The notes below the pieces were generated by a model that had not been told where the DNA came from, made no database searches, and was given only the letters and a program-made list of their open reading frames with translations. A program made the position numbers and the translations under genes. From an uncultured Bacteroidales bacterium (lineage in GTDB: Bacteria; Bacteroidota; Bacteroidia; Bacteroidales; P3), in NCBI GenBank assembly GCA_900318665.1, contig ONLQ01000008.1, positions 1 to 59,156 on the forward strand: DNA of 59,156 bases. Reading direction: 5' to 3'. Below, piece after piece: positions 2,676 through 23,156 of this stretch (position 1 is its first letter; the number at the start of each line of letters is the position of its first letter).

Positions 2676-2694
2676 TCAATAAAAAACCAACATT

Positions 2695-5900: not shown

Positions 5901-5999
5901 AAAGGCATAAAGAAAACGCAAGATTTGTCTTAAAGCATTTCCGCACAAGGAGTGCAAAAATATTTTCTAAAATCAACTAACAACTAATGATTTAGTATT

Positions 6000-6599
6000 A
6001 TGTCTAAGTCGCAAGTGAAGAAATTACTCTCAGGCATGAGCAAGGAGGAAGTCATCAACGTCGTGCTGGAGCTCTATGATGCAAGGAAAGAGGCGCGAAA
6101 CTATCTTGATTACTTCGCCAACCCTAACGAAAGTAGTGAACTGGAAAAGTTCAAGAAGATTGTACTCAAAGAGTTTGGCGACGATGGAATACATTTTCCA
6201 CAATGCCGTTTCAGCGTGTGTCGTAAGGCTTTGTCTGATTTCAAAAAGCTTTCTCCGTCTGAAGATACTTTGGCAGAAGCAATGGTCTTCTACATTGAGC
6301 GTATCTACGAGTTCTCATTCGGTGCTGGCGACATATGGGAACAATACTACGATTCGGCCATTAGTAATTTCCGCTCAATGTTGAAATTCTTAGTGAAGAA
6401 CGGCTTGCTGGAATCAATGATGCCGCGCGTCGTACAGATAATGGCTTGGAGTTGGCCGTGTGGATATGGTTTCCACGATGAGACTGGTGAGTCTTTCTAC
6501 GAACTTGTTCCACCACAATACCACATCAAGGTGGAAGAAGCGGATGTTTTGGGTGAAGCGCAATACTATGCCATACACCCAGACCTAAAATACAGATAG
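6000..6599 (+). CDS. DUF6155 family protein
   Basis: 199 residues. The N-terminus (SQVKKLLSGMSKEEVINVVLELYD, then a YLDYFANPNE motif) is characteristic of DUF6155 proteins, whose function is unknown. The protein is mostly helical and soluble, with no signal peptide. It follows the decayed TOTE gene after ~100 nt of AT-rich spacer and is the last plus-strand gene before the convergent adenine deaminase gene. No functional link to its neighbours can be argued from sequence. Confidence 0.75.
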   Translation: MSKSQVKKLLSGMSKEEVINVVLELYDARKEARNYLDYFANPNESSELEKFKKIVLKEFGDDGIHFPQCRFSVCRKALSDFKKLSPSEDTLAEAMVFYIERIYEFSFGAGDIWEQYYDSAISNFRSMLKFLVKNGLLESMMPRVVQIMAWSWPCGYGFHDETGESFYELVPPQYHIKVEEADVLGEAQYYAIHPDLKYR

Positions 6600-6746
6600 A
6601 AAACGATTGAATCAATATTATTGACCGATAAAATCACAGTTTATTAACATTGTAGATTTTATTGGTAATCCTGCGGGGGCGGGGACTTGGGGGCCTCGTA
6701 GGGGGATGTGTCTTTTTATTGCGAAGTGCTGTCGGGAAGGTGGCGC

Positions 6747-8459: not shown

Positions 8460-8667
8460 AGAGTGGCAACCTTATCGTTTAACATCCTGACAAAGAGCGC
8501 AATGCGCTCTCTCCTAAAACAAAAAGCAAAGATACACAAAACAACCGAAACAACACCCACAAAAAAAGGAGCAACAATTTTTAAGTGGTCCAAATCAAAC
8601 ACAAAACCATCCCACGCATTAATAGTTTCGCGGTTATTCCCGCAATCTTATAATTATCCCCAATAAC

Positions 8668-8893
8668 CATTTTTTTGTATCTTTGCAGACTATTACAAGA
8701 GAGAGAAGTAGGTATGCAAGAGAAGCATTGCCGTTAGGCACACAGGTTTTAGTTTTTTTTGAACCATTCACCTGTCGGAGGCCTGCGGAGAAAGAAAAAT
8801 AAACATTATATAGAAAGAATAGTCAAAACATCCTTGATTAGGCGAAAGGAGCAGAGTTAGCATATCGAAAGAAGTTAGAAACGGAGGAAAACT
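8668..8893 (+). repeat. Duplicated ~230-nt leader, copy 1 (before the DUF4062/RecG-like pseudogene)
   Basis: It starts at a promoter (TATCTTTG at 8678-8685) and runs to the ATG at 8894. It shares ordered blocks with 9906-10137: the promoter with the following GCAGAC.ATT, GCAAGA(G/A)AAGCATTGC, TGCGGAGA.AGAAA, TATATAGAAA and ACATCCTTGATTAGGC. The sequences between the blocks differ. The block order and spacing suggest a shared untranslated leader rather than chance. Confidence 0.75.
8678..8685 (+). promoter_or_regulatory. Bacteroidota-type promoter, leader copy 1
   Basis: TATCTTTG is a perfect TAnnTTTG element, preceded by a T-rich tract and followed by GCAG. The predicted transcript has a leader of about 200 nt. 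Confidence 0.75.
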
Positions 8894-9872
8894 ATGGCAA
8901 ACGAAATAAAGGTTTTCATCAGCAGCGTACAGAGTGAGTTCGCAAAAGAACGACGACGGGCGGCTGACCAACTCGGCCCTGCTGCTCTTTGCCAAAGACC
9001 CACAGCGATTTTTCCGCACCTCGGAGGTGCGCTGTGCTCAGTTTTACGGCACCAAGGTTGAAAAGCCCATCCGCAATTATCAGGTCTTCTCTGGTTCGCT
9101 CTTTGAGATGATTGACAAGGCTGTCGGCTTTGTGATGTCGCGCATCGACGCGCGCGTGGGCACTCGCGACCATTCTGTCGATGCCCCTGTCGATTACGAG
9201 TTGCCTGAGAGTGCAGTGGCCGAAGCCATTGCCAATGCCGTTGCCCATCGCGACTATAGCAGCAACGCCAGCGTGCAGGTGATGCTCTTCCGCGACCGTG
9301 TGGAGGTTTGGAACCCAGGCCGTCTGCCCGATGGTTTCACCGTGCAGAAGTTACGGGAAATTCATTCCTCCGAGCCTACCAATCCCGTCATTGCGCATCC
9401 GCTTTTCCTTGCGGGATATATCGAGCACCTCGGTACGGGTACCACGGACATGATATCCGCCTGTGAGCATTATGGGCTTCGCACACCCGAGTTCTGCCAA
9501 GCGGAAGACTTCCGTACAATCATCTACCGGAAAGGAAATGGGACAGGAGCCAATGAAAAAGTAACAGAGCTTGGCGAAAAAGTAACAGAGCTTGGCGAAA
9601 AAAGTAACAGAGTTCGCCTGACAGCCAAACAGCGAAAAGTATTAGAGTTCTGCGATGAGGTGCCTCGCACAGCACAGGAAATACTGGAGATGGTAGGCGT
9701 TAAATATCAAACACGAACCGTCCTCCAGTACACTACAAAGCTGGTGTTGATGGGATTGCTTCGTCCTACTACAACGACTCCCAACGACCCCAATCGCAAA
9801 TACATCACAGCGCACGGAAAGGATGTCTCAAAAGAAAGAACACAAAGGCTGAATACGCCATACGTGGAATGA
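8894..9872 (+). pseudogene. Broken DUF4062 / RecG-like ATP-binding regulator with internal deletion
   Basis: The ATG at 8894 opens MANEIKVFISSVQSEFAKER, the start of the DUF4062/SIR2-like 'ISSV' domain of a larger family. After ~20 codons the frame is lost and stops at 9059-9061. A second frame (8934-9872) supplies the C-terminal half of the same family: NDDGRLTNSALLLFAKDPQRFF, RIDARVGTRDHS, EAIANAVAHRDYSSNASVQ, YIEHLGTGTTDMI, then a winged-helix end. The DNA-binding AlbA/Schlafen-like part and most of DUF4062 are missing. The join lies in a run where both halves read AAAGAACGAC, consistent with a microhomology deletion that also shifted the frame. Three near-identical GEKVTEL units (9555-9615) mark a slippage-prone linker. 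The downstream half could still start at the GTG at 8934. Confidence 0.8.
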
Positions 9873-9905
9873 CACAGCCATTTTTTTTGGTGGCCACCTA
9901 AATAT

Positions 9906-10137
9906 CCATTTTTTTGTATCTTTGCAGACGATTCTCAGCGGGAGAAAAGGCTGAGAATGAAGCAAGAAAAGCATTGCAACTGTTCCGATACCTATATCTG
10001 AGGACAGGAGCATATAAGTCTCATGCCTTTTTATTGTATAATTTCCCGATTGGAGACTTGCGGAGATAGAAAGTTAAATATATAGAAAAAAGCTGAATAA
10101 TAAGAACATCCTTGATTAGGCTGAAGGAGGGATAAAA
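9906..10137 (+). repeat. Duplicated ~230-nt leader, copy 2 (before the YhcG nuclease gene)
   Basis: The counterpart of 8668-8893 with the same ordered blocks. It also holds its own hairpin, CTCAGC...GCTGAG, just after the promoter, and an AGGAGG stretch 6-7 nt before the ATG at 10138. Confidence 0.75.
9917..9924 (+). promoter_or_regulatory. Bacteroidota-type promoter, leader copy 2
   Basis: TATCTTTG follows a T-rich tract exactly as in copy 1. It drives the YhcG gene with a leader of about 200 nt. Confidence 0.75.
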
Positions 10138-11244
10138 ATGAGTACAGAACCAACATTTGTATATCGCGACGGTATGACACCCGACAAAGAGTATGTAGAG
10201 TGGTTGAAAGAATTGAAAACACGCTACAGACACAGCCAGACGAAAGCTGCTGTCAAGGTGAATACGTCCATGTTGGAGTATTATTGGAGCTTGGGACGCG
10301 ATATTATACAGCTGAAAGCTGAAAGCAAATGGGGCGGTGGGTTCTTCAACCAGCTTAGTTTGGATTTGAGAGAGATGTTTCCTAACGAGAAAGGATTGTC
10401 ATCGGCCAATCTTCGTTACATGAAACGTTGGTTTGAGTTTTATTATCAAGGGATATTAAATATGCGGCGATCTGGTGCAGGAATCATTTCTTCATCTGTA
10501 GAAGAAATTCTTCAACGACCCGTTGAAGAATTAAAGATGCCTGAAATATTTGGACAGATTCCATGGGGACAACATATAGATATTATCTCACGATGTAAAT
10601 CATTGGATGAAGCTCTTTTTTATCTCAGACAGGTGTTAGACAATGGGTGGTCGCGTCCGGAATTGAATGGTCAAATTGATTCCGACCTATATGTCCGCCA
10701 AGGATCCGCTATTACAAATTTTTCAAGTACTTTACCCGCTCCGCAAAGCCAGTTGGCACAAGAATTATTGAAAGACCCGTATGACTTCAGTTTTTTGGCC
10801 ATAAAAAACAAGTACGATGAGCATGACCTTGAAGAGGCACTTGTGACCAATGTCACCCAATTTCTTTTAGAATTGGGTAAAGGATTCTCGTATGTGGGTA
10901 GGCAGATGGAGTTACAGATGCCAGGAGGCCAGACATTCTTCCCTGACCTGGTGTTCTATCATATCCCACAGCATCGCTATGTGGTTGTAGAGTTGAAAAC
11001 TGTGGATTTCGTACCCGAATTTGCTGGCAAGTTGAATTTTTATGTTACGGCTGCCGATAATCTGCTTAGAGGAGATGAGGACAATCCTTCGGTAGGCCTG
11101 TTGATATGCAAATCAACAGATAAGACCATTGTAGAATGGTCGTTACATGATATTCAGAAGCCATTGGGTGTGGCTACTTATCAGTTGCAAGAGGTGGTGG
11201 AGCGCACTGTTGCAGAAATTGAAGTGAAAAAAGCAAAAATGTAA
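10138..11244 (+). CDS. YhcG/DUF1016 family PD-(D/E)XK nuclease
   Basis: 368 residues. The N-terminal DUF1016 part (~15-150) shows YVEWLKELKTRYRHSQTKAAVKVN, YYWSLGRDI, WGGGFFNQLSLDLREMFP and SSANLRYMKRWFEFY. The C-terminal YhcG-type nuclease (~215-360) shows FLLELGKGFSYVGRQMEL, then PDLVFYHIPQHRYVVVELKT, giving the D...ExK catalytic pattern, and a VGLLICKSTD strand. The length matches the family (~340-370 aa). Such proteins are frequent riders in restriction-modification and defence loci; their exact role is unsettled. It stands between two other defence-type loci and has its own promoter and long leader. Confidence 0.9.
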   Translation: MSTEPTFVYRDGMTPDKEYVEWLKELKTRYRHSQTKAAVKVNTSMLEYYWSLGRDIIQLKAESKWGGGFFNQLSLDLREMFPNEKGLSSANLRYMKRWFEFYYQGILNMRRSGAGIISSSVEEILQRPVEELKMPEIFGQIPWGQHIDIISRCKSLDEALFYLRQVLDNGWSRPELNGQIDSDLYVRQGSAITNFSSTLPAPQSQLAQELLKDPYDFSFLAIKNKYDEHDLEEALVTNVTQFLLELGKGFSYVGRQMELQMPGGQTFFPDLVFYHIPQHRYVVVELKTVDFVPEFAGKLNFYVTAADNLLRGDEDNPSVGLLICKSTDKTIVEWSLHDIQKPLGVATYQLQEVVERTVAEIEVKKAKM

Positions 11245-11521: not shown

Positions 11522-12592
11522 ATGCTATATGGCGTTGACATATTTTGTGGTGCTGGCGGTCTCAGTTTAGGTGCTGAGATGGCAGGTATTCAAATTGCCT
11601 TTGCTGTAGAAAAAGACAAAAGTGCAGCGGAAACATATAGGTACAACCACAAGAATACACCCATAATCTGTGATGATATTCACAATGTAGACCCTCTCAA
11701 ACATATTCCTAATCTAAATGCCGATGACCAAATAATTGTATTTGGAGGTCCACCTTGCCAAGGTTTTTCGCTGTCCAACACAATGACACGCAATATGCAG
11801 AATCCCAACAATAGTCTATTTGAGGAGTTTGTTAGGTTTGTATCTGTGCTACAGCCAGAATGGTTTTTATTCGAAAATGTTGAAGGATTTTACAGATTTG
11901 AGGAAGGGACTCTGCGAAACAAGGTAAAGCTTTGTTTTGAGGATTTGGGATATACTGTGAACGATGCCATTGTCGTCGCTTCTGATTATGGCGTACCGCA
12001 ACACAGGAACCGTTTTATTATGGTTGGCAATCGGCATGGCATACTGTTTCAATTTCCCCTAAGGCAAGAGAAATCATATTCTGTTAAAGATGCAATAGGA
12101 GACCTCCCCGAACTGACCAATGGACAAATGGAAGATTCTCTACCATACAATTGTACAGCTAAAGAAGCAGGGGAATATGCACAATTGATGCGCAAAGGCT
12201 CTAGGACTTCCAAACAGAACTATGTTTCACGAAATGCAGACTATGTCATTGAGAGATACAAATACATTAGTCAAGGACAAAACTGGCGTGCCATTCCAGA
12301 AGAATTAATGGCCAATTACAAAGACAAAAACCAGTGCCATAGTGGAATCTACAAGAGACTGATTGCAGACAAGCCATCTGTAGTTATTTCAAATTATCGG
12401 AAAAACATGTTGATACATCCTTTCCAAGACAGAGGATTATCGGTAAGAGAAGCCGCTCGATTGCAGAGTTTCCCCGACACATTCATTTTTAAGGGAAGTT
12501 TGATGCATATGCAGCAACAAATTGGGAATGCTGTTCCTCCATTATTGGCAAAAGCTGTTTTTGAGAAAATAATAGCATATGAAGAACAATGA
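11522..12592 (+). CDS. DNA (cytosine-5) methyltransferase, M1 of a LlaJI-like system
   Basis: 356 residues. The C5-MTase motifs are in canonical order: motif I VDIFCGAGGLSLG (residues 5-17), motif IV GGPPCQGFS with catalytic Cys79, motif VI ENVEGF, motif VIII PQHRNRF, then the target-recognition region, and motifs IX/X REAARLQSFPDTF and QQIGNAVPP. It acts on DNA using S-adenosylmethionine. Its stop overlaps the next gene by 14 nt. A second, quite different C5-MTase lies 3.4 kb downstream in the same unit. Two such enzymes plus McrB- and McrC-like proteins is the composition of LlaJI-type systems, where each MTase modifies one strand of an asymmetric site. The site itself cannot be read from sequence. 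Confidence 0.95.
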   Translation: MLYGVDIFCGAGGLSLGAEMAGIQIAFAVEKDKSAAETYRYNHKNTPIICDDIHNVDPLKHIPNLNADDQIIVFGGPPCQGFSLSNTMTRNMQNPNNSLFEEFVRFVSVLQPEWFLFENVEGFYRFEEGTLRNKVKLCFEDLGYTVNDAIVVASDYGVPQHRNRFIMVGNRHGILFQFPLRQEKSYSVKDAIGDLPELTNGQMEDSLPYNCTAKEAGEYAQLMRKGSRTSKQNYVSRNADYVIERYKYISQGQNWRAIPEELMANYKDKNQCHSGIYKRLIADKPSVVISNYRKNMLIHPFQDRGLSVREAARLQSFPDTFIFKGSLMHMQQQIGNAVPPLLAKAVFEKIIAYEEQ

Positions 12593-14723
12593 CCCTTCAA
12601 TATTGCATTTTAAATTCGATGTCAGCACTTTCCGCCTGTTGGGTCGGGAGTTGATAACAGACAGAATCACGGCTTTGTTTGAACTCGTGAAAAACTGTTA
12701 TGATGCCAATGCAGAGAAGGTGGATATCACGTTTGAGTCTCTGAATCCATTGTCTGAAAAGAGTAGAATAATCATCAAGGACAATGGTCTGGGCATGACA
12801 TTTGAAGATATTCGTGATAAGTGGATGGTTATTGGCACCAGCAGCAAACGAAGAAAAAAAACATCACCAGCACCTTATAATCGTATTGTGGCGGGCAAAA
12901 AAGGCGTTGGACGCTTTGCTGTGGACAAACTAGGTGGGAAATTGGTGTTGAAAACAAAAAAGAGTGGTTCCCTAGTATGGCATTGTTTGGAAACGGACTG
13001 GACGAAGTATTCTGAAGAAGAAGACCGGCAACTTAAACTGAACTTTGACGAGAATAGGGAGTACCAAAAATTGTTCACAGATATTGATAACAAATACTGG
13101 ACCGAACTTGGTGACACAAATGTTCAAGGAACAATTTTGGAAATCTCTTCGTTGAATGATGTATGGCTTGAAAGGGATGTCATCCGTGCATATAGAGAGC
13201 TGTCAAAGATTGTTAGGCCAACATTGAATGCAAAATATCCTTTTATTATCAAATTCCATGTTCCAGAATATAAGGACTACGATGACAAGCCTGTTGAAAG
13301 TATAGTATTGGCAAAAGCGACGTTATCATATTCCTTGAAATACAGATTCGATGCTGATAAAAACAAATACTATCAAGAATATCTTGAAGATAACAAAGGC
13401 AGTCTTGTTGTGAAGGAAAAGGAAGCTGAGGTATTTGGTCCCATAGGCTTCTCCATCTATTATTACGATCAAGAGGGTAAAAAGAATTTTACAAAGGAGG
13501 ATCGTATCGATGGCATTAAAGTGTATCGTGACGGTATTATCGCCACTCCTTTCGCCGAATATAATGCGAAAAGAGATGAACAAAAAGACCTTTTCGGTAT
13601 TGACAAACGACGTTGGTCAGGATTCTTTGAGAAACTAAGCACTAGGGACATTCTTGGATGGGTAGACATTACCGACGAGCTAAACCCAGAGATAAAAGAC
13701 TCCACTAACAGGCAGGATTTTGTCGACAATAAAGAATGGCACAACCTGAAAGTGTTTGTGATTAATCAGATACACCAGATAGAACTCTATCTAAAACATC
13801 AAAAGGATGACAAGAAAAAAGAAAATGCAGAGAAGCTAAAGAACGCAAATACGGAAATCGAGGATATCAAGCAGAAAATTAGCCGTATTAAAAAGCAGTC
13901 GTTCTTTGCATCACCCGAAGTTGAATCGGAATTGGACAACATCACGGCAAGGTTAGGAGAGATAAAACAAAATGTCTCAGCCTCTTCTAAAGATTTAGAG
14001 CGTATGGAGGAAGACAAGCGACAACAAGAGAACATCATGTTCAGCTTGGTATCACTACAGGCATACGCCGGTCAGATTTCACATATTCTCAGAATTTCCA
14101 TTGGTATCATCAAACGTTCCGCAGAGTTTGTAGCTAAATGGGTTCCCTTCGGGCAAAAACAAGACAAATCTGTAAAACATGCACGTCGCATTTTTGACGA
14201 GATGAATAATCTCTCCAAAGCGATGAATTTCATGCTGAGCTATGCGGAAGACGATTCCACATTCGAATATTTTGACATACGTAATGCCACTAAAGAGCTG
14301 TTTGAAGACAGATATTACTATCTGTTTGAAGATGAAAATATTAGTGTGGAATATGTGATTGAAGATGATTTCGAATTGCTATACAACAAAAAAGCGTTTC
14401 AAGATATGTTTGGCAATCTTATAGACAATTCAGTGAAAGCATTACGTAACACTCAAGACAAGCGAATCAGGTGCTCTGTTTATCGAGAGAACGACAACCT
14501 TGTCGTATTGTTTTCCGATAATGGTCCTGGAATCCCCGACGAAAGCCGTGATAGGATTTTTGATGTGTTCTATACGACAACCGCAGATTTGGGTGGTGCT
14601 GGTTTGGGTCTTTACATTGTACGCACACGATTAAACTCCATCAAGGGTACTATCACCCTCGAACCTAACGAATTCAACCCAACAGGCGCTACTTTCAAAA
14701 TTGTTATACCATTAATACATTAG
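12579..14723 (+). CDS. Dual-GHKL ATPase / histidine-kinase-like sensor protein
   Basis: 714 residues with two separate GHKL ATP-binding modules. The N-terminal Hsp90/MutL-like one (~20-140) has ELVKNCYDANA, IKDNGLGMT and the glycine lid AGKKGVGRFAVDKLGG. The central ~400-490 is a long coiled coil rich in Lys/Glu. Around residues 485-520, HisKA-like sequence AGQISHILRISIGIIKR places His502 where a phospho-accepting His would lie. The C-terminal HATPase (~600-714) has an N box NLIDNSVKAL, G1 SDNGPGIP and G2 GGAGLGLYIV. There are no membrane segments, so it is cytosolic. Its start overlaps the end of M1, and a receiver-domain gene begins 3 nt after its stop, supporting a phosphorelay. The stimulus is unknown. 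Confidence 0.85.
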   Translation: MKNNDPSILHFKFDVSTFRLLGRELITDRITALFELVKNCYDANAEKVDITFESLNPLSEKSRIIIKDNGLGMTFEDIRDKWMVIGTSSKRRKKTSPAPYNRIVAGKKGVGRFAVDKLGGKLVLKTKKSGSLVWHCLETDWTKYSEEEDRQLKLNFDENREYQKLFTDIDNKYWTELGDTNVQGTILEISSLNDVWLERDVIRAYRELSKIVRPTLNAKYPFIIKFHVPEYKDYDDKPVESIVLAKATLSYSLKYRFDADKNKYYQEYLEDNKGSLVVKEKEAEVFGPIGFSIYYYDQEGKKNFTKEDRIDGIKVYRDGIIATPFAEYNAKRDEQKDLFGIDKRRWSGFFEKLSTRDILGWVDITDELNPEIKDSTNRQDFVDNKEWHNLKVFVINQIHQIELYLKHQKDDKKKENAEKLKNANTEIEDIKQKISRIKKQSFFASPEVESELDNITARLGEIKQNVSASSKDLERMEEDKRQQENIMFSLVSLQAYAGQISHILRISIGIIKRSAEFVAKWVPFGQKQDKSVKHARRIFDEMNNLSKAMNFMLSYAEDDSTFEYFDIRNATKELFEDRYYYLFEDENISVEYVIEDDFELLYNKKAFQDMFGNLIDNSVKALRNTQDKRIRCSVYRENDNLVVLFSDNGPGIPDESRDRIFDVFYTTTADLGGAGLGLYIVRTRLNSIKGTITLEPNEFNPTGATFKIVIPLIH

Positions 14724-14726
14724 AAT

Positions 14727-15332
14727 ATGTTTGAGAAGATGAATATTACCATCGTCTACATAGATGATGATGAAAAAATGAAAGAAGATGCATTTCTAGA
14801 TGATATCAGTGATCAAGTGGATGAAATCCTTTATTTTCAGAAGCCGTCGGAAGGGGTGGCGTTTGTAAAGGAGAATATCGACAAAAACATTGTGGTTATT
14901 CTTGACTGGAAGTTCAATAGCAGTACACTTCAAGGTGACGATGTCCTAAGAGATATCGATGATGTCTCTGTATTAGTGCCTATCATCGTCTTTACAGGTG
15001 CCAGCATTGATGCGACTGAGGCCAACAAGATGTTCAAAGGGAATGCCTTCAGTTGTGTCCCTAAAGATTCCGATACGGAAACATTGATTAATGCCATTCG
15101 TAATGCCTACGACAGGATCCAGAACGATATTCGTTCAGTAATGGAGAAATGGATTCTAAAACAAGATCCCGAAAAGCGAAACAAGCCATACATGCGTTTT
15201 GGCAATAAGGTCTATACCTTGAATGACATCCTTGTGTCCGTTCGCAGACAAGACGAATTTGGCAAAGAAACCACACGTGGTATATTGAGTCTTGCGACTG
15301 AGTTGTTCACTAATAACATGAGGGAAAAATGA
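14727..15332 (+). CDS. Response-regulator receiver protein without a known output domain
   Basis: 201 residues. Residues ~6-130 form a CheY-like receiver with every canonical residue: the acidic cluster Asp13-Asp15 (VYIDDDE), phospho-acceptor Asp60 (VVILDWKF), Thr90 (IVFTGAS) and Lys113 (CVPKDSD). The remaining ~70 residues are charged and helical (IRSVMEKWILKQDPEKRNK, then ILSLATELFTNN) and match no DNA-binding output I know, so signalling by protein contact is likelier than transcriptional control. It begins 3 nt after the histidine-kinase-like gene, and its TGA overlaps the ATG of the caspase-like gene. These couplings suggest a kinase-receiver-effector chain. Confidence 0.85.
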   Translation: MFEKMNITIVYIDDDEKMKEDAFLDDISDQVDEILYFQKPSEGVAFVKENIDKNIVVILDWKFNSSTLQGDDVLRDIDDVSVLVPIIVFTGASIDATEANKMFKGNAFSCVPKDSDTETLINAIRNAYDRIQNDIRSVMEKWILKQDPEKRNKPYMRFGNKVYTLNDILVSVRRQDEFGKETTRGILSLATELFTNNMREK

Positions 15333-15970
15333 AACTCAATGCAGTTATTATTGCGGATGACGTTGCTGAAAATATCGGTGAACTGTGTGTTATGCTGAAG
15401 AATACTGAATGCCAGTTGTTGGAACAATTTGGGCGCACAAGGGATGATGTTCTAGTTCATTGCGACATCTATTGTCACGATACTGTCAACAAACAGAATC
15501 TATCCGAAAAGCTTTCGCTTGTTAATTTTAAGGACTTTTTATGCTGTTGGTTTGGACATGGCAATGATGAGTCTTTTAGTATGGATGGCGAAAAAATCGT
15601 TACCGCCACTGACAATCATTACATTTTCTCAAATGCCCTAGTTTACACCTTTTCATGTTTGAATGGGGGTACACTTGCTAATGTGCTTATTAGCAACAAT
15701 GCCAAAACTTTCGTTGGCTATAATGGCAAAGCCAATTGTCCTTATGGAATAGATGATGTAACTTGTGACATAGCAATGTCTTTTCTCGCATCTTTTCTTG
15801 GAGGTAAGTCTGTCAGCAATGCTGTAGATGATTTGAAAACATCTTATGAAGATGCTGTATTCAACAAAGACCTAGATCCTTTTCAAAGGTCTTGTTTTCA
15901 AGAAAACCGTGACAATGTTACGCTGAAAGGTGACGGCACTTTAACCATTGATAATCTTTTGGTTGCCTAA
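15329..15970 (+). CDS. Small caspase/CHAT-like (clan CD) protease-like protein, putative effector
   Basis: 213 residues, soluble. The pattern CCWFGHGNDE (His77-Gly78) followed 33 residues later by VYTFSCLNGGTLANVL (Cys110) and then NNAKTFVGYNG reproduces the core of clan CD peptidases. In CHAT, gingipain and caspase-type domains, a strand ends in His-Gly, the next strand ends in the nucleophile Cys, and a GA.a.vG strand follows. No other domain is visible. It is coupled by an ATGA overlap to the receiver gene and followed after 10 nt by the second methyltransferase gene. I infer a protease effector gated by the receiver. The fold call comes from motif spacing only and needs a structure prediction. 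Confidence 0.6.
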   Translation: MKLNAVIIADDVAENIGELCVMLKNTECQLLEQFGRTRDDVLVHCDIYCHDTVNKQNLSEKLSLVNFKDFLCCWFGHGNDESFSMDGEKIVTATDNHYIFSNALVYTFSCLNGGTLANVLISNNAKTFVGYNGKANCPYGIDDVTCDIAMSFLASFLGGKSVSNAVDDLKTSYEDAVFNKDLDPFQRSCFQENRDNVTLKGDGTLTIDNLLVA

Positions 15971-15980
15971 ACTTACAATT

Positions 15981-17096
15981 ATGGCTAAGAAGAAATATAC
16001 GTTCATTGACCTATTCGCAGGCATTGGGGGATTCCATCAAGCCATGCACTCCGTTGGAGGAAAGTGTGTGTTTGCAAGTGAATGGGACAAGAATGCCAGA
16101 ATATCATATGAGGCGAACTATAAAGACATAGAACCAACTCTATTCAAGAAGAATAAAAAGGGAGAGTATCTTTATTTTAACGAAGATATTAACGATGCTA
16201 TTCCAAGCAAAATTCCAACCTTCGACATATGCTGTGGAGGATTTCCTTGCCAACCATTTTCTGTTGCAGGTTTGAAGCGAGGGTTTGAAGACACTCGTGG
16301 AACATTATTTTTTAACATTGCGAATATTGTTAAAGAAAAGATAGAATCGGGGCATCCCCCAAGAGTACTATTTTTAGAAAATGTTAGAGGTCTTAAAACA
16401 CATGATAAAGGGAAGACATTAAAAGTCATTCTTGCAACTCTGAAAGAGTTAGGTTATGATTACTCTTATGATGTTTTAAATGCAAAGTATTTTGGTGTTC
16501 CGCAAAATAGAGAGAGGTTGTTCATAGTCGCCTGGTACAGAGAATCCGTCAATGCAAAAGAATTTAAATTCCCCTATGGGATTGACCCTAGCGGCAACAC
16601 CATATATGAGAAAGAGAAACTAAAAGAAGGAACCTTGCCGACAAAAGTGTCTGATATTTTTGAGCCATTCAATACTATAGACCCATCATATACAATAAGT
16701 GATAGAATGTGGGAAGGTCATAAAAATAGAAAAGAAAGAAATAAACAAAACGGTAAAGGCTTTGGATATTCCTTGTTTAACAAAGATAGTGTATATACAA
16801 GTACAATATCTGCAAGGTACTGGAAAGATGGTAGCGAAATCTTGATTGACCAATCTGATAAAGGTCTTAACCCAAGGAAATTGACACCAGTTGAAGCAGG
16901 ACGATTGCAAGGGTATAGAATCATTGGTAATGGATGGGAGAATCCAGAATGTGAAAAAAATCAGAATAACAATGATTCAAACCTTGAGTACAAAATTGTA
17001 GTTTCAAAAAAAGAAGCATATCACCAATTTGGTAATAGTGTGGCGGTGCCTGTGATAAAAAGAATTGCATTAGAAATAGTTAATCAACTTATGTAA
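15981..17096 (+). CDS. DNA (cytosine-5) methyltransferase, M2 of a LlaJI-like system
   Basis: 371 residues from the ATG at 15981 (MAKKKYTFIDLF). A TTG farther upstream lies inside the preceding gene and is not needed. Motif I is FIDLFAGIGGFHQA; motif IV GGFPCQPFS has Cys90; ENVRGL, PQNRERLFI and a long target-recognition region follow; the end holds TPVEAGRLQGY and QFGNSVAVPVI. The architecture is Dcm-like but diverged from M1, as expected for a pair that methylates the two strands of a non-palindromic site. It is very AT-rich, as is the first half of the next gene. The McrB-like gene starts 1 nt after its stop. Confidence 0.95.
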   Translation: MAKKKYTFIDLFAGIGGFHQAMHSVGGKCVFASEWDKNARISYEANYKDIEPTLFKKNKKGEYLYFNEDINDAIPSKIPTFDICCGGFPCQPFSVAGLKRGFEDTRGTLFFNIANIVKEKIESGHPPRVLFLENVRGLKTHDKGKTLKVILATLKELGYDYSYDVLNAKYFGVPQNRERLFIVAWYRESVNAKEFKFPYGIDPSGNTIYEKEKLKEGTLPTKVSDIFEPFNTIDPSYTISDRMWEGHKNRKERNKQNGKGFGYSLFNKDSVYTSTISARYWKDGSEILIDQSDKGLNPRKLTPVEAGRLQGYRIIGNGWENPECEKNQNNNDSNLEYKIVVSKKEAYHQFGNSVAVPVIKRIALEIVNQLM

Positions 17097-17097
17097 T

Positions 17098-18894
17098 ATG
17101 AAAGAATTAAAAGACTTGCGCTTATTAGCTAGTACTTTGGTTGAAAGATACAAAGCACTATATTCAGGGAAAGACATAGAACTCCCTTCTGAGTTTAAAT
17201 CCCAAGTGCAAGATATAAAAGATGAAAAAATAGAATATAATCGTTATTCTGCTATTGTTACAACTCAAAGAAATTTAAAAATATATTTACCAAATCAGTG
17301 GTTTTATATTGCTGCTTTCTTTACAGAATATTATAATCAGTTAAAGCAATATAAAGAAATTGTTTTATCAATTTTCCCTAAAGAACGATTAAAAGAATTA
17401 AAAGGTAATTCTCTAACAGACATAGAGCAGAAAAAAATTAGTCAATTATCTATTAGCGATAGTTCGAAAGACTATTTGTCTAAATTTGTAACAGATTACA
17501 AATGGTGGGGTGGAGGAAAAACAATTGACAGGGATGATTACTATGTTTCACCTGTGCTAAATTACGCTGCATTAGTTAATGTCTCACAGTCTTATGTCGC
17601 GGATTTGTGTGCTTTTCTGGCAGAGAATAGTACTATTGTTGATCTGCTTCAAAAACAAGCAAGTATAGATGCGGCGAGGCATTTAGCCCCATCTAGAGAT
17701 GCGATGTCCTCAAATAATAGATATTGTTCTTACCTCACAGCTTTGCGGACGAAGCCGTTTATGTTGCTGGCGGGAATCTCTGGGACGGGGAAGAGTAGGA
17801 TTGTTAGAAAACTGGCGCAGGCTACTACTACACAAAAGTATGATAATGATAGTGATAGATGGAATGATAACAGGCCAGAGAATTTCGAGTTGATTCAGGT
17901 GAAGCCTAATTGGCATAACTCTATGGATGTGGTGGGGTTCTATTCTAACATTTCCAAGCAGTACGAGTTTACGCCTTTTGTGGAGTTTATTGTCAAGGCT
18001 TGGCAACATTCGGATACACCTTATTTTCTATGCCTTGATGAGATGAACCTTGCTCCAGTAGAGGAGTATTTTGCTGAATTCCTTAGTGCTATTGAGTCGC
18101 GTTCTACGGATGCTGACGGCAATTACATAACCGACCCTATTATTAAACCGTTTAAGGACTTTGGAGAGACTGTTGGCAAAGGTATGCTTAAACATCTGTT
18201 TGGCGAGGCCGACCCGATAGACAAAAACCCGCTGGCGGTACAATTTTACGAGAAAGGTCTTACTCTTCCACCGAACTTGATGGTAATGGGTACTGTGAAT
18301 ATGGACGAGACAACTTTTTCGTTCAGCCGCAAGGTACTTGACAGAGCGATGTCGGTGGAGATGAACGAGGTTGATTACGATAAATTCCTATCGGGTGAGA
18401 CCGAAGAGTTTCCATTATTGATAGATTATAATGAACTGCTGGTGAACCGTCCACAGAAAGCCTCAGAGGTGAAGGATGACATCGATAGTGAAAAGGTGGT
18501 GGAATATCTGAAAGACGTGAATGCCCTGCTGGAAGATACACCTTTCAAGTTGGGCTACCGTGCCGCTAACGAGGCAATTTTGTATGTGGCTGCCAACAAG
18601 GAACTGGCAGGAGACCAATTCTCCATGCCAACAGCATTAGACGAGTTCACGCTGATGAAAATCCTTTCTCGGATTGAGGGTGACGACCAGCGGTTGAACA
18701 TTGATGAGAACGACCCTCGTGTGGCTGCTGCTAATATTGCAGATAATGTTGGAAATGGTCAACGCATTAACTTGTTGACCTGTCTATGCTCAATAGTCCG
18801 CAAGCATATCGGCGACGACACCCAGACGGAGAGGAAGATTGCCTCGATGAATCGTACCCTTGAACGTGAACATTTTGTTTCCTATTGGGGTTGA
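17098..18894 (+). CDS. McrB-like AAA+ GTPase subunit (R1 of a LlaJI-like restriction system)
   Basis: 598 residues. The N-terminal ~190 residues are lysine-rich and unique, presumably the DNA-recognition part. The AAA+ motor begins near residue 215: Walker A GISGTGKSR, an NWHNSMDVVGFY strand typical of McrB, Walker B FLCLDEMNLAPVEEYF, and the sensor region GTVNMDETTFSFSRKVLDRAM. In McrB proteins such motors use GTP and drive DNA translocation toward a McrC nuclease. It is co-translated with the McrC-like gene (TGATG overlap at 18892-18896). Codon and base composition shift from AT-rich to more balanced around 17700, inside this gene, which hints at domain shuffling of the recognition part. 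Confidence 0.9.
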   Translation: MKELKDLRLLASTLVERYKALYSGKDIELPSEFKSQVQDIKDEKIEYNRYSAIVTTQRNLKIYLPNQWFYIAAFFTEYYNQLKQYKEIVLSIFPKERLKELKGNSLTDIEQKKISQLSISDSSKDYLSKFVTDYKWWGGGKTIDRDDYYVSPVLNYAALVNVSQSYVADLCAFLAENSTIVDLLQKQASIDAARHLAPSRDAMSSNNRYCSYLTALRTKPFMLLAGISGTGKSRIVRKLAQATTTQKYDNDSDRWNDNRPENFELIQVKPNWHNSMDVVGFYSNISKQYEFTPFVEFIVKAWQHSDTPYFLCLDEMNLAPVEEYFAEFLSAIESRSTDADGNYITDPIIKPFKDFGETVGKGMLKHLFGEADPIDKNPLAVQFYEKGLTLPPNLMVMGTVNMDETTFSFSRKVLDRAMSVEMNEVDYDKFLSGETEEFPLLIDYNELLVNRPQKASEVKDDIDSEKVVEYLKDVNALLEDTPFKLGYRAANEAILYVAANKELAGDQFSMPTALDEFTLMKILSRIEGDDQRLNIDENDPRVAAANIADNVGNGQRINLLTCLCSIVRKHIGDDTQTERKIASMNRTLEREHFVSYWG

Positions 18895-21119
18895 TGTCGG
18901 CAAATAGTGAAATATTCTATTTCGAGGTTTGGAATGATGATGTCCGCCTCCGTTTCTCGTGCGATAAGACACCTAATCGCATACTGAAGGCGGTGGAAAA
19001 TCTTAGGGTACATCGGGGGGATGAAAAACTGATGGCGGAGTTTGTTTCCACACAGTCGGACATCCATTTCAGTTTTAATGGGGAGGAGAGCGATTCGTTG
19101 CATCCGGTTCGCGAAGCGGTATTCTTTGAAAATACCCAGTATCCTGTATTGATAGAAGGTGGCGAGGATGTTAGTGATATGTCTCTATGGTTTTCAAATG
19201 TGTCGAAGGACCATTGTCTGAGTAGCGACAAAAAATTGCTATTTGGGGCAGTTTCATTTGGAAATCAAGTTGGCAGGACCGACATAGGTGTTGACTATCA
19301 AAAGGACGGGAAGCGTAAATACCTGCGATTTTCGACTGAGGTGCTGAGTTACAAGATGGATTATCGGTCCGATTTGAAACTGATTATCCGTGATATTGAG
19401 CAGGAATACAGTATGCTCTCGTTTGCTTTCATGCGTGAGACTTATTTGAACTTTCGCACGCAATCGGGCGACTCGACCGACTTGATTTGGTGGCAGATAT
19501 TCCAGTCGTGCTTCACGGATATTACTCATGCCTGTCGTCAGATTATCAACTCCCCAAAACGCAAGTTGCAAGAGCGTACTGTTTATGAACGTGCCGACAG
19601 GCTGCGGTGGGTAGATTGCGAATTGGAAAACGAATACCGAGAATTTGAGAACGACCCGCATCATCGTTATCGCACATGCGAACTTTGCCACACTAACGAT
19701 ACTGTGGAGAACCGTTTTTTGAAATTTGTGATGCGTGAAACACTTCAACGATTCTCTATTGTGAGCCAGCATATACGAGACTCTGTTGCCAAGGCAAAAC
19801 GGCTTGAGATACGGTTGAATGAAATGGGCGAAGAATTGCAACGACTTGTCAATCACCCTTTCTTCCGCAGTATTGGTACCTTCAAAGGTTTTGCGCAAGA
19901 CTCGCTGGTGATGAAAAAATCGCCCAATTACCGCATCATCTATCAGAAATGGATTGAACTGCTGTGTGGATATGAGTTGGAAGAGGGGATTAACAAATTG
20001 GAAACCAAAGATATTGCCTATTTGTACGAAATATGGTGCTTCCTGCGAGTAAAGAATATTGTTGCTGATATATTGAAAGACAAGGCTGTGGCGCAATACA
20101 AGGGGCGCAAACTAACTCCACAATTTGTGCGTGATTTGAGTTGGGGTACCCATTCGGAGGTGACTTTCCTACGAACAGAAGATGATGTAGAGTTGGCATC
20201 GGTGATGTACAACGCACCAGTGAGAGAGGATGAAAGCAGGGCGGTATCGGCTATAAGCGGCACCACAACATTCACCACACAGCAACGCCCTGACATCGTG
20301 TTGCGACTTACCAAACGGCAAAGGGATATAAAATACACATTCCTTTTCGATGCAAAATATCGCATCAGCGACACGCACTGCGAAGGACTTGACATTCCGC
20401 CCAATGATGCTATTGACCAGATGCACCGCTATCGTGACGCAATCTACTATATTGACCCAACGAACAAGAAACCCAAGCGCGAAGTGATTGGTGGATATGT
20501 TCTCTTCCCAGGAAACTATACTGGCAAGGAATTTGAAGAGTCACGCTACTACAAATCTATCAAAGAAATAGGTATAGGCGCATTCCCGTTAAGACCCAAC
20601 GATGGAATCATTGTCAATCCTAACGACAGCGAGCAACTGTTACGGAAACAAATATCTGAATGGTTGCGACGTGGACGTATGCAGAGTTACTTATACAAAA
20701 ACGTAGCGCCGCAGCACGGGTTGGACTACCAAAACCCTGACGATGTTATTCTCGTAAACTACGCAAACCAAGAAAAGTCGGCCAAAATGAAAGAACATGG
20801 TCTTTGCTATTTGCGCACTGGCGATGATAGAGGGGCGATTGTTCTGCCACCTATGGCTCTTGACGTAAAATATCTAATGCTCCACAACGGAACGTCGGGA
20901 ATATTATACAAATTGAAAGGTCAAGGGCCTCGCTTTATGTCGAAGGCGGATTTGGAGCATAAAGGTTTTACATCGTTAGGGCATGACTATTATCTGGTCT
21001 ATGAGTTTGACACCTCTTTGGCACGGGAATATACAAACATTGCTGGCCTTAGGCGAGGCCAATATACCACTGCCCCATGGTTTGCTACATGGGAGCAGTT
21101 GATGATGAGCGGGGAATGA
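18894..21119 (+). CDS. McrC-like / DUF2357 nuclease subunit (R2 of a LlaJI-like restriction system)
   Basis: 741 residues from the ATG at 18894 overlapping the McrB-like stop. The N-terminal ~1-150 should be the McrB-contacting part. Residues ~160-300 are DUF2357-like (YRSDLKLIIRDIEQEY, TDLIWWQIFQSCF, NSPKRKLQERTVYERADR). The nuclease core is at ~470-500: RPDIVLRL, then YTFLFDAKYRIS, a PD...DxK arrangement of the PD-(D/E)XK class. After it comes a long C-terminal region with DQMHRYRDAIYY and GGYVLFPGNY, found in DUF2357 proteins. It would supply the cutting activity for the McrB-like motor. It is the last gene of the seven-gene unit; the next gene (lepA) is convergent, 30 nt away. Confidence 0.9.
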   Translation: MSANSEIFYFEVWNDDVRLRFSCDKTPNRILKAVENLRVHRGDEKLMAEFVSTQSDIHFSFNGEESDSLHPVREAVFFENTQYPVLIEGGEDVSDMSLWFSNVSKDHCLSSDKKLLFGAVSFGNQVGRTDIGVDYQKDGKRKYLRFSTEVLSYKMDYRSDLKLIIRDIEQEYSMLSFAFMRETYLNFRTQSGDSTDLIWWQIFQSCFTDITHACRQIINSPKRKLQERTVYERADRLRWVDCELENEYREFENDPHHRYRTCELCHTNDTVENRFLKFVMRETLQRFSIVSQHIRDSVAKAKRLEIRLNEMGEELQRLVNHPFFRSIGTFKGFAQDSLVMKKSPNYRIIYQKWIELLCGYELEEGINKLETKDIAYLYEIWCFLRVKNIVADILKDKAVAQYKGRKLTPQFVRDLSWGTHSEVTFLRTEDDVELASVMYNAPVREDESRAVSAISGTTTFTTQQRPDIVLRLTKRQRDIKYTFLFDAKYRISDTHCEGLDIPPNDAIDQMHRYRDAIYYIDPTNKKPKREVIGGYVLFPGNYTGKEFEESRYYKSIKEIGIGAFPLRPNDGIIVNPNDSEQLLRKQISEWLRRGRMQSYLYKNVAPQHGLDYQNPDDVILVNYANQEKSAKMKEHGLCYLRTGDDRGAIVLPPMALDVKYLMLHNGTSGILYKLKGQGPRFMSKADLEHKGFTSLGHDYYLVYEFDTSLAREYTNIAGLRRGQYTTAPWFATWEQLMMSGE

Positions 21120-21149
21120 TTTTATTCTCCGCTTTTTTCTTGTGTGGGG

Positions 21150-22952
21150 TTAGTCTAATTTTAGTACTGCTAGGAAGGCGCTTTGGGGTACTTCTACGTT
21201 GCCTACCTGGCGCATGCGTTTCTTGCCTTCTTTTTGTTTTTCGAGGAGTTTGCGTTTGCGCGTTATGTCGCCACCATAGCACTTGGCTGTGACGTCCTTG
21301 CGCACCTGGCGCACTGTCTCGCGGGCTATAATCTTGCTGCCTATGGCTGCCTGTATGGCTACGTCGAACTGCTGGCGCGGTATCAGGTCTTTCAGTTTCT
21401 CGCACATGCGGCGGCCTATGCCGTAGGCGTTATCGACGAAGGTGAGCGTGGACAGTGCATCGACGGGGTCGCCGTTGAGGAGTATCTCCAGTTTGACGAG
21501 TTTGGAGGGCTTGTAGCCGTTCAGATAGTAGTCGAACGAGGCGTAGCCTTTGGAGATGCTTTTCAACTTGTCGTAGAAGTCGAACACCACCTCGCCCAGC
21601 GGCAGGTCGAAGGTGATTTCGATGCGGTCGGTGGTGAGGTAGTTCTGGTTTTTGAGTATGCCGCGCTTGTCCATGCAGAGTTTGATGACGGGGCCTATGT
21701 AGTCGGCCTTGGTGATGATTTGCGCATGGATATAGGGCTCGTAAACCTCGGCAATGTTGTTGGGCTCGGGCATGCCGGAGGGGTTGTAAACGTCTATCTC
21801 GGTGCCGTTGGTGAGTTTGACTTTGTACTGCACGTTGGGCACGGTGGTGATGACGTCCATATTGAACTCGCGCGTGAGGCGTTCCTGTATTATCTCCATA
21901 TGGAGCAGGCCGAGGAAACCGCAGCGGAAGCCAAAGCCGAGGGCCAGCGAACTTTCGGGCTCGAAAGTCAGCGAGGCATCGTTGAGTTGCAGTTTCTCGA
22001 TGGAGGCGCGCAACTCCTCATAGTCGTCGGTATCGACGGGATAGACGCCGGCGAAGACCATGGGCTTGACCGACTCGAAACCAGCGATGGCGTTCTCGCA
22101 TGGGGTCTCAACATGGGTTATGGTGTCGCCCACGCGGACCTCGCTTGAGGTTTTGATACCACTGATGATATAGCCTACATTGCCTGCTTTCAATTCCTTG
22201 CGGGGTTCCATATTGAGGCGCAGCACGCCAATCTCGTCGGCGTGGTAGTCTTTCTCGGTGCTGACGAATTTCACCCAGTCGCCCGTGCGCAGCGTGCCGT
22301 TCATAATGCGGAAATAGGAGATGATGCCACGGAAGGGGTTGAACACCGAGTCGAACACCAGCGCCTGCAGTGGCGCGTTCTCGTCGCCCTTGGGGGCTGG
22401 CACACGGTCCACGATGGCCTCCAGCACCTCGGGCACGCCCACGCCGGTCTTGGCGCTCACGGCCAGGATGTCGTCGCGTCCGCAACCCAGCAGGTCTATT
22501 ATCTCGTCGGCCACCTCTTCGACCATGGCGCTGTCAAGGTCTATCTTGTTCATCACGGGGATGATTTCCAAGTCGTTCTCCAAAGCCAGATAGAGGTTGG
22601 AGATGGTCTGCGCTTGGATGCCCTGCGTGGCGTCCACCACCAGCAGCGCGCCTTCGCAAGCGGCAATGGAGCGGCTCACCTCGTAGCTGAAGTCCACATG
22701 GCCCGGGGTGTCGATAAGGTTCAGCACATAATCCTCTGCCGGGGCGCCATCGATGCTGCGGCGGTAGTTCATCTGTATGGCGTGGCTCTTGATGGTGATG
22801 CCGCGCTCCTTCTCAAGGTCCATATCGTCGAGCACCTGCGCCTGCATGTCGCGCTGCGAGATGGTTTTGGTATATTCCAGAAGACGGTCGGCCAATGTGC
22901 TTTTGCCGTGGTCGATGTGGGCAATAATGCAAAAGTTGCGGATATTTTTCAT
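21150..22952 (-). CDS. lepA: Elongation factor 4 (back-translocase LepA)
   Basis: 600 residues from the ATG at 22952 ([19 protein letters not shown]). The frame is open to 23021 but the conserved start is at MKNIRNF. It has the full translational-GTPase set: G1 [10 protein letters not shown]2 [10 protein letters not shown]3 [12 protein letters not shown]4 NKIDL, G5 SAKTG. Domain II, the LepA-specific block [14 protein letters not shown] and the C-terminal [19 protein letters not shown] complete the protein. It acts on stalled ribosomes. A promoter element TAACTTTG sits 18 nt upstream on the minus strand. Confidence 0.98.
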
Positions 22953-22969
22953 AACAGGAATTGAGAGTG

Positions 22970-22977
22970 CAAAGTTA
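22970..22977 (-). promoter_or_regulatory. Bacteroidota-type promoter for lepA
   Basis: On the minus strand this reads TAACTTTG, fitting TAnnTTTG, 18 nt before the lepA ATG at 22952. Confidence 0.65.
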
Positions 22978-23051
22978 CATGTTTTTTCGGGATTTGCGCA
23001 GGTGTGCGACGTTGCGGGCAAATCATTTTTTGTCAGTTGCGAAAAATGTCG

Positions 23052-23059
23052 TATTTTTG
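23052..23059 (+). promoter_or_regulatory. Promoter for tRNA-Ser
   Basis: TATTTTTG lies 10 nt before the mature 5' end of the tRNA. Confidence 0.65.
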
Positions 23060-23068
23060 CAGCCGCTT

Positions 23069-23156
<88 letters not shown>

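Follow-up and report, generated by a model that had tools for sequence, protein, structure and literature searches.

Detocs is an anti-phage system of the two-component type, in which a sensor kinase, a phosphate-sink receiver and a receiver–effector fusion are combined, and caspase-like effectors of the SAVED-CHAT type are activated by a nucleotide signal. Among systems that involve DNA methylation, LlaJI consists of four genes with two 5mC-methyltransferases (excerpts of PMC1459862). MutL/MORC-type GHKL ATPases lie beside restriction–modification (R-M) genes in the paraMORC families, as they do at the locus described here (passages of Iyer et al., 2008; PMC2292703); the main text of that paper uses none of the words receiver, caspase or peptidase. 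The HEF_HK/Response_reg_2 pairs, in the sections of PMC8011034 that describe them, are likewise similar to the present locus in having an N-terminal HATPase_c_3 (paraMORC-like) region joined to a histidine-kinase half, an adjacent receiver and a C5-methyltransferase nearby, and the word caspase-like is absent from the main text. Furthermore, receiver domains occur in one CoCoNuT (McrBC-like) type (portions of PMC11090510), and HATPase and REC domains are named in a figure legend of PMC13092281 for predicted systems, with which overlap is possible as far as that legend goes.

In this study, a stretch of 59,156 nucleotides from an uncultured Bacteroidales bacterium (contig ONLQ01000008.1; hereafter the window) was analyzed computationally, together with related loci in other genomes. 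The analysis was centred on four genes, encoding a methyltransferase (MT1), a kinase-like ATPase (GHKL), a receiver (REC) and a caspase-like protein (CASP), and on the methyltransferase (MT2), McrB-like and McrC-like genes that follow them.

Results

Gene layout

Seven ORFs lie in a row on the plus strand, and each boundary between them is either an overlap or a gap of 1–10 nt (Table 1). The McrC-like protein of the window matches PF09823 (DUF2357; 1.8e-41) and PF04411 (1.3e-28) in Pfam. Promoter-like sites numbered 34, compared with 28.1 in shuffled sequences, which is no clear excess. Further defence-type genes adjoin the cassette within the window.

Table 1. Features of the locus, in positions of the window.
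Feature	Position	Strand	Boundary with preceding gene	Assignment
MT1	11522..12592	+		C5-cytosine DNA methyltransferase (PF00145, 1.9e-69); proposed self-marking enzyme, opens the four-gene core
GHKL	12579..14723	+	14-nt overlap	paraMORC-type ATPase and histidine-kinase core; proposed sensor kinase
REC	14727..15332	+	3-nt gap	Receiver domain at about 5–133; proposed relay
CASP	15329..15970	+	4-nt overlap	Caspase-like (clan CD fold), His77-Gly78 and Cys110; proposed protease effector
MT2	15981..17096 (from ATG)	+	10-nt gap	Second C5-cytosine methyltransferase (PF00145, 9.7e-82); alternative ORF start TTG 15948
McrB-like AAA+	17098..18894	+	1-nt gap	AAA_5, 6.4e-5; PADLOC PDC-M26A, 7.1e-44
McrC-like	18897..21119 (from ATG)	+	2-nt gap	DUF2357 and PD-(D/E)XK nuclease; alternative start TTG 18885
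Terminator-like hairpin	21107..21134	+		12 pairs followed by a T run, where the McrC gene ends; consensus match only

A conserved four-gene core

A pattern-limited scan of genome contigs with the GHKL sequence yielded 79 loci, of which 75 contain MT1, GHKL, REC and CASP complete, in fixed order and with tight spacing; because all four genes occur together in these loci, MT1 is assigned to the trio that follows it. Of the incomplete loci, L037 and L078 run into the end of their contigs, and in the distant loci L092 and L093 no REC or CASP was recognized by the profiles. In 76 of the 79 loci, the gene immediately before GHKL is a methyltransferase on the same strand; these are all of the family loci with upstream sequence (every one but L037, with L092 and L093 left out). 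The genes after CASP are variable, and in 16 of 76 loci the gene that follows is encoded on the opposite strand; a dedicated substrate gene after CASP as a general rule was rejected on the same grounds. MT1, GHKL, REC and CASP are a four-gene unit of their own, separate from MT2–McrB–McrC.

The MT1 homologues of 67 loci fall into three identity clusters and one singleton. In the same number of loci (L066, L067, L037, which has no MTase sequence, L016, L019, L051, L053, L055, L065 and L070 were left out), pairwise identities between loci were correlated at 0.70 for MT–GHKL, 0.71 for GHKL–REC, 0.69 for REC–CASP and 0.32 for MT–CASP, and gene order alone could explain this correlation along the chain.

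The carriers of the core are nearly all Bacteroidota, Flavobacterium hercynium DSM 18292 (L034) among them. Diverged copies were found on a Stenotrophomonas plasmid (L095; hhalign P 7.9e-6, 33.3 bits versus 10.0 for the best unrelated ORF) and in the relative G081 (L109), where an MTase–GHKL–REC–CASP cassette was recognized at 15.5 bits. CASP is patchy, being present in eight of 148 relatives including the genome of the window itself, and the caspase version is considered rare because among 395 Bacteroidota genomes drawn only the window's own genome matched the CASP profile (E <= 0.001). A scan of viral contigs with GHKL gave three stretches, none of them a relative, and phage records gave three partial kinase matches. 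Immediately before MT1, 16 of 76 loci have small genes of the Cro/C1-type HTH class, and seven of these 16 loci were tested by Pfam; controller genes sit likewise in R-M systems.

The constant methyltransferase, the controller-like HTH genes in 16 of 76 loci, the patchy presence and the plasmid copy L095 would suit a selfish addiction module that mainly kills cells losing the cassette and has little role against phage. However, the same parts are expected of a defence system, defence and addiction are not exclusive, and other defence-type genes stand beside the cassette in the window, so that addiction as the main role is distinctly unlikely.

The downstream McrB/McrC-like neighbour

Profile searches recognized McrB/McrC-like genes after the core in 24 of 76 loci (and in 21 of the 57 with at least 6 kb downstream), a count that may be too high because Pfam backs only part of the 22 McrC-type matches (DUF2357 in six, PDDEXK_7 in six, RE_LlaJI in six, and one methyltransferase). 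For this count the McrC seed from L013, which had no Pfam support, was dropped, and the match number was unchanged. Such genes are present downstream in six of the seven close-relative loci (L009–L015), which makes a functional link between the core and the McrB/McrC-like genes possible in this group. They also neighbour the core in six of the seven loci L016, L019, L051, L053, L055, L065 and L070, whereas among 20 loci with kinases of other types just one has them (L121, on the upstream side of its kinase), the stretches compared differing in length.

The restriction-type neighbours in the siblings L009 and L010 include two methyltransferases of their own, and in the relatives L108, L109 and L111 two MTases directly precede McrB/McrC. 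McrC copies 75–79% identical to that of the window occur in six relatives, four of which were read, and such genes also stand beside other neighbours. In G005 (L110) and G034 (L111) the McrC is 75–76% identical and the stretch read contains no GHKL, although in L110 it reaches only 2.3 kb beyond McrC on the upstream side, and in G081 (L109) the diverged core cassette stands beside an McrC 79% identical to that of the window. The position of MT2 varies in relatives, and MT2 is assigned to the neighbouring McrB/McrC-like module and not to the conserved core.

The preliminary description of this DNA had presented the kinase, receiver and caspase-like genes as embedded in a LlaJI-type system. The run of seven plus-strand genes with overlaps or gaps of at most 10 nt was confirmed by the ORF coordinates, and the trio was upheld as a conserved unit, accompanied by MT1 in 75 of 79 loci. 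Its embedding was not supported, as MT1 belongs to the trio and McrB/McrC-like genes occur in just 24 of 76 loci. Of the co-occurrence that was to be looked for, the part with a C5-methyltransferase was borne out, whereas McrB/McrC-like genes follow in those 24 loci only. Of the LlaJI composition ascribed to the outer genes, MT2, McrB and McrC do resemble the LlaJI MTase, R1 and R2, but the McrC lacks PF09563 and MT1 is a core gene. The earlier picture has to be turned round: MT1, GHKL, REC and CASP make up the unit, and the McrB/McrC neighbour is separate.

It might still be argued that the trio serves an McrB/McrC-type (LlaJI-like) restriction system as its back-up, with the protease released when restriction fails. 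The spacing of all seven window genes at 10 nt or less would fit this, as would a frequency of 24 in 76, which is more than expected of a chance neighbour, the contrast between six of seven close-relative loci and one of 20 loci of other kinase types, and the McrC beside the diverged cassette of G081. Nevertheless, a back-up arm is unlikely: most loci have no recognized McrB/McrC-like neighbour and 16 of 76 have an opposite-strand next gene, the figure of 24 may, judging by Pfam, be too high, the neighbours in L009 and L010 own two methyltransferases, and the stretches read around the McrC copies of G005 and G034 contain no GHKL.

Kinase, receiver and caspase-like protein

GHKL contains the Pfam domains PF13589 (HATPase_c_3) at residues 31–154 and PF02518 (HATPase_c) at 605–712 (1.3e-26). 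Its N-terminal half resembles restriction enzymes of the BbrUII/HgiDII family (NF050001, 3.4e-18, residues 11–132), at 65.5 bits, where the family cut-off is 550. Conservation was assessed in the window sequence and 76 others; His502 is present in all 77, and many ATP-site residues are invariant. In HisKA kinases, the acid next to the phospho-His acts as a general base. Such an acid after the phospho-His is typical of these kinases (sections of PMC8011034), and of 26 kinases that stand next to other outputs, 25 have it. The residue following His502 is acidic in none of the 77 family members; because this acid is missing, ordinary autophosphorylation of GHKL is in doubt. Differences in GHKL by methyltransferase type are largest at residues 101–160 and 201–240 by a label shuffle that ignores relatedness, and in loci combining a type-1 MTase with distant kinases no clear shift was seen in the GHKL segments.

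REC scores 28.7 bits against PF00072, just below the cut-off of 30.2, and a fold look-up together with the alignment identified a receiver fold with the phospho-acceptor Asp60. No PADLOC model matches it. The preliminary description had called the receiver residues intact; over the 77 sequences this applies to Asp14 and Asp60 (77/77 each) and to Thr90 (Thr or Ser in 77/77), whereas beyond the window Asp15 (23/77) and Lys113 (Lys in 40/77, Arg in 22/77) vary. Asp13 is kept in 65/77. A putative phosphotransfer from kinase to receiver would draw on conserved machinery.

The C-terminal segment of REC (135–201) is also conserved, which would suit a regulatory two-component system in which GHKL and REC tune the expression or activity of the methyltransferase and the neighbouring restriction genes and CASP degrades one of their products as a regulatory protease; Bellieny-Rabelo et al. 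(2021) speculate in this direction, in the sections concerned, for HEF_HK/Response_reg_2 pairs beside C5-methyltransferases (PMC8011034). However, no known output domain was found in REC by look-ups that covered almost only the receiver part, many loci have no recognized restriction gene nearby, and nucleases take the effector position in related cassettes. Such a regulatory role is rather improbable.

For the product of the gene at 15329–15970, AlphaFold2 and Foldseek gave a caspase/gingipain (clan CD) fold, so the caspase-like assignment made earlier withstood the structure prediction that had been set as its refutation test. The bacterial caspase-like effector SAVED-CHAT (PDB 8tl0) is among the likenesses, as a fold match only. 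CASP has no Pfam family and no PADLOC model, and a PDB sequence search gave chance matches only (best E 0.11). In the alignment of 77 sequences only seven columns reach 90%, including His77 (77/77), Gly78 (77/77) and Cys110 (76/77, the remaining one a gap), and these figures place the residue pattern above chance; the residues named in the preliminary description, His502 and Asp60 among them, thus exist and recur across the family. In L067 the homologous ORF is just 95 aa long. The His-Gly and Cys of the catalytic dyad stand in the usual clan CD order. By its modelled fold and dyad, CASP is a putative clan CD peptidase that would act by proteolysis.

The proposed effector position in related cassettes

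Beside related kinases, the position of CASP is taken by an HNH nuclease in L096, L099, L115 and L122 (below cut-off also in L098 and L120) or by an MBL-fold protein in L102, L105, L112, L113 and L114. Because related cassettes hold these other proteins, the CASP position looks like an exchangeable effector slot, and the relay like a chassis that these cassettes share. These cassettes mostly have N6- or Eco57I-type methyltransferases. In the HNH cassettes, the protein encoded between kinase and nuclease is similar to REC (hhalign P 8.5e-6); the middle protein of the MBL cassettes is only weakly similar to the receiver (hhalign P 0.0064, probability 5.9), and Pfam recognized no family in the two that were tested. 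In 14 of 20 related kinase loci, from Bacteroidota, the next positions contain no protease, HNH or MBL gene, and the receiver protein is mostly longer. By eye, the receiver in L131 was suspected of having a HEPN-like end, but this was discarded, as Pfam gave only Response_reg.

Discussion

The four-gene core may be an R-M-like defence cassette that has a signalling relay and a protease in place of the restriction endonuclease, a proposal to which we give an even chance. In such a cassette MT1 would methylate a cytosine at its own site on the host DNA, as expected from its family, and so provide a self mark. The paraMORC–histidine kinase protein could close its N-terminal MutL/MORC-like ATPase clamp on unmarked phage or plasmid DNA; clamp closure would switch the kinase half, and the phosphoryl group would pass from His502 to Asp60 of REC. 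Activated REC would then turn on the caspase-like protease, as suggested by the constant order of the genes and by the effector slot, and the protease might cleave host or phage proteins so that the infected cell stops. MT2–McrB–McrC would be a separate restriction-type system, often sharing the locus in Bacteroidales.

The polarity of this scheme, with unmethylated DNA as the trigger, is suggested by analogy with R-M systems. The McrB/McrC-like group includes modification-dependent enzymes (see also portions of PMC11090510), so a type IV-like cassette could be imagined that fires on methylated or hypermodified phage DNA, its methyltransferase having another purpose. This is very unlikely, since the methyltransferase encoded in each of the 76 family loci that have upstream sequence would mark the host as a target.

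The proposed R-M-like cassette can be generalized to a class of immune systems with a methylation self mark, a paraMORC–histidine kinase sensor and a phosphorelay to an exchangeable effector (protease, HNH or MBL), for which the chance is put at a little under even. If real, this class would represent R-M logic with programmed proteolysis, not DNA cleavage, as its output. It would join methylation-based self/non-self discrimination and caspase-like regulated cell death, which are usually treated apart, and would provide a concrete output for kinase–receiver pairs beside methyltransferases, whose function lacks explanation. The swap of effectors would serve as a rule for finding further such systems.

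Comparison with known systems

The window shares with Detocs kinase–receiver signalling that ends in an effector; to our knowledge, Detocs has no methyltransferase and its sensor differs from that of the window. BbrUII/HgiDII-family paraMORC-type restriction enzymes (NF050001) share the N-terminal ATPase stretch with GHKL, but the C-terminal half of GHKL is a histidine kinase and the score is far from the family cut-off (65.5 bits versus 550); a type II R-M nuclease was sought in the core, and no Pfam nuclease family was found in the four core proteins. With LlaJI, the likeness lies in MT2–McrB–McrC, which resemble its MTase, R1 and R2 in composition, whereas the kinase, receiver and protease of the window have no counterpart among the LlaJI genes (excerpts of PMC1459862). 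In addition, the window McrC matches DUF2357/PDDEXK_7 and not PF09563 (RE_LlaJI), and with respect to the two MTases of LlaJI, it is MT2 that is contiguous with McrB and McrC, while MT1 sits before three other genes.

The window proteins differ from HEF_HK/Response_reg_2 pairs in having no PF19191 or PF19192 match at E <= 0.1 (hmmscan, Pfam-A); a six-frame search of the window's own genome for these two families gave no match, and control genomes gave none either. Compared with the pairs as described in sections of PMC8011034, the window kinase lacks the acid after the His and a caspase-like gene is added. A methyltransferase, kinase, receiver and caspase-like gene together were not found in open-access titles and abstracts, among the matches listed. 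Compared with SAVED-CHAT, the switch for CASP is likely to be a receiver gene, and the four-gene cassette looks like an unrecognized immune system.

Results

The preliminary description had reported seven closely packed plus-strand genes in the window, and this arrangement was borne out: when ATG starts are taken for MT2 and McrC, each boundary is an overlap or a gap of 1–10 nt. Because a HATPase_c_4 gene and a YhcG/DUF1016 nuclease gene lie upstream of the cassette, the locus resembles a defence island.

Features of the window and of related loci
Feature	Position	Strand	Assignment or observation
Row of seven ORFs	11522-21119	+	MT1 to McrC
MT1		+	Pfam C5-methyltransferase
GHKL		+	Pfam HATPase_c_3 and HATPase_c
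REC		+	Pfam Response_reg (28.7 bits, cut-off 30.2); no PADLOC model matched
CASP		+	No Pfam family and no PADLOC model matched
MT2		+	Pfam C5-methyltransferase
McrB-like		+	Pfam AAA_5; PADLOC best match PDC-M26A
McrC-like		+	Pfam DUF2357 and PDDEXK_7
Window, overlapping ORFs	5072-5557, 5238-5900		Different frames; look like fragments of one broken gene
Window, 5' of cassette	8934-11244		HATPase_c_4 gene; YhcG/DUF1016 PD-(D/E)XK nuclease (PADLOC PDC-S02, 8e-130)
Window, directly 3' of McrC	21150-23156		LepA-like gene and tRNA-Ser
L013, terminal ORF	18413-19001		Starts with the same LepA-like residues as in the window (by eye)
L011 (G061), 3' of cassette	5290-8919		No restriction genes; DUF2971-like, kinase-like and TPR-containing proteins in their place (Pfam matches weak)
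L121, directly 5' of paraMORC kinase	1332-4876		McrB-/McrC-like genes, in the place usual for the methyltransferase
L131, receiver protein	6839-7753		RNQFAH motif in C-terminal part, similar to that of HEPN RNases, a likeness that Pfam does not support
L095, receiver-like and caspase-like ORFs	9126-10456		Absent from the PLSDB gene table (table incomplete)

A search with CASP found it in eight of 148 genomes, including that of the window, and in the neighbourhoods of all seven others the order MTase-GHKL-REC-CASP recurred, followed by differing genes. Since these seed loci were picked by CASP, the weight of the linkage result rests on loci found by kinase sequence alone. A pattern-limited scan of genome contigs with the kinase alignment of the eight loci yielded 143 stretches and 82 relatives; 79 distinct loci were kept, seven of them on contigs already read. 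All four core genes lie in order on one strand at 75 of the 79; at L037 and L078 contig ends interrupt the cassette, and at L092 and L093 (27–29% identity) REC and CASP were not recognized by profiles. With mechanical ORF starts, the spacing in these loci is −71 to 17 nt for MT-GHKL (single outlier 281), −212 to 20 nt for GHKL-REC and −86 to 9 nt for REC-CASP. By taxon label nearly all are Bacteroidota, with one cassette each labelled Spirochaetes (L046) and Candidatus Kapaibacterium (L044). The four genes very probably form one functional unit that has no need of McrB/McrC.

Diverged caspase cassettes were also found. The Stenotrophomonas plasmid L095 carries a C5-MTase, a kinase and two unannotated ORFs, one receiver-like by eye (no Pfam match) and one matching CASP across the His-Gly and Cys region (hhalign P 7.9e-6). 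The 77-sequence CASP profile gave 33.3 bits for L095 and 15.5 for L109, compared with a maximum of 10.0 for unrelated ORFs in the 79 loci. A clan CD fold can be assigned to CASP with great confidence. Furthermore, the acidic residue after the phospho-His is absent in caspase-linked paraMORC kinases (the 77-member family, L095 and L109) and kept in 25 of the 26 kinases whose output is of another kind.

Among kinase relatives from plasmids and a Bacteroidota draw, the gene order is equal and the last gene differs. It is an HNH gene in L096, L099, L115 and L122 (just under cut-off in L120 and in L098, where the kinase annotation is fragmented) and an MBL-fold gene in L102, L105, L112, L113 and L114; where annotated or tested, the methyltransferases of these cassettes belong to the N6, type I M or Eco57I types. 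Between kinase and HNH gene lies a protein resembling REC (hhalign P 8.5e-6, five sequences); the likeness is weak for its counterpart in the MBL cassettes (P 0.0064), which in L102 is annotated as a response regulator. Twenty full-length kinase matches from 19 genomes, hand-picked from the Bacteroidota draw, comprised three MBL, three HNH and 14 others, mostly with a single longer receiver protein (L124 is truncated by a contig end); around them the CASP profile gave only a chance-level match (0.047, opposite strand, L123). Receiver-type proteins of ∼360–440 aa, with a C-terminal half to which no family is assigned, end many related cassettes (L116-L119, L121, L123, L125-L129, L108); on visual inspection, several of them have a P-x-C-D motif.

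Neighbours were counted over the full set of 76 CASP-bearing loci. Considering ORFs of 100 aa or longer, the first one after CASP has the same orientation and starts within 100 nt at 31 loci, and has the same orientation but lies farther away at 25; at 16 it runs in the opposite direction, and at four the contig ends before any is reached. Directly 5' of MT1, 16 of the 76 carry small Cro/C1-type HTH genes (L021, L030-L035, L038, L039, L041, L056, L060, L069, L084, L086, L094; seven Pfam-tested), which resemble the controller genes of R–M systems.

The trio had been described as embedded in a LlaJI-type system; McrB/McrC instead lie outside the core, with such genes 3' of it at 24 of 76 loci at most by profile (21 of the 57 having at least 6 kb of sequence), among them six of the seven loci of close relatives. 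The 24 is an upper figure because Pfam, run on 22 McrC-type matches, gave DUF2357, PDDEXK_7 and RE_LlaJI in six each, KaiB in two and a methyltransferase in one. Outside the seven, 17 of 18 McrB/McrC-bearing records are labelled Bacteroidales or groups that we take to lie within it, and one 'Bacteroidia bacterium'. In the siblings L009 and L010 (CASP 79–81% identical), two further methyltransferases precede the restriction-type genes. Six relatives have McrC copies 75–79% identical to that of the window; in the four examined, the copy adjoins a different kinase-receiver pair (L108) or a diverged caspase cassette (L109), lies near a contig end (L110) or accompanies two MTases and a DUF2971-like protein (L111, by eye). 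From these counts, siblings and copies, McrB/McrC is a recurrent neighbour in Bacteroidales, strongest near the genus of the window, and not part of the core. Because the L013 end ORF starts with the LepA-like residues seen in the window, a shared insertion hotspot near lepA may exist and perhaps underlies this neighbourhood.

Discussion

The conserved four-gene unit, the folds, the residues and the exchange of the last gene are the observed part of the case. In the proposed mechanism, methylation would mark self, the paraMORC half of the kinase would sense DNA, and phosphotransfer would be followed by protease activation and arrest of the infected cell; we give this chain as a whole even chances. 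Gating by methylation is preferred mainly because the methyltransferase is constant, and CASP is called the effector mainly because a nuclease or MBL protein can replace the protease.

As to known systems, kinase residues 11-132 resemble the BbrUII/HgiDII restriction-enzyme family (NCBIfam, 3.4e-18), but the score is far below the family cut-off (65.5 against 550 bits). The kinase-receiver-methyltransferase theme has been published as a prediction (PMC8011034), in the main text of which the word 'caspase' is absent, and searches of open-access titles and abstracts did not find the present four-gene composition among the matches listed. As far as these sources extend, the theme is therefore known as a prediction, and the composition with a caspase-like gene is a new variant of it.
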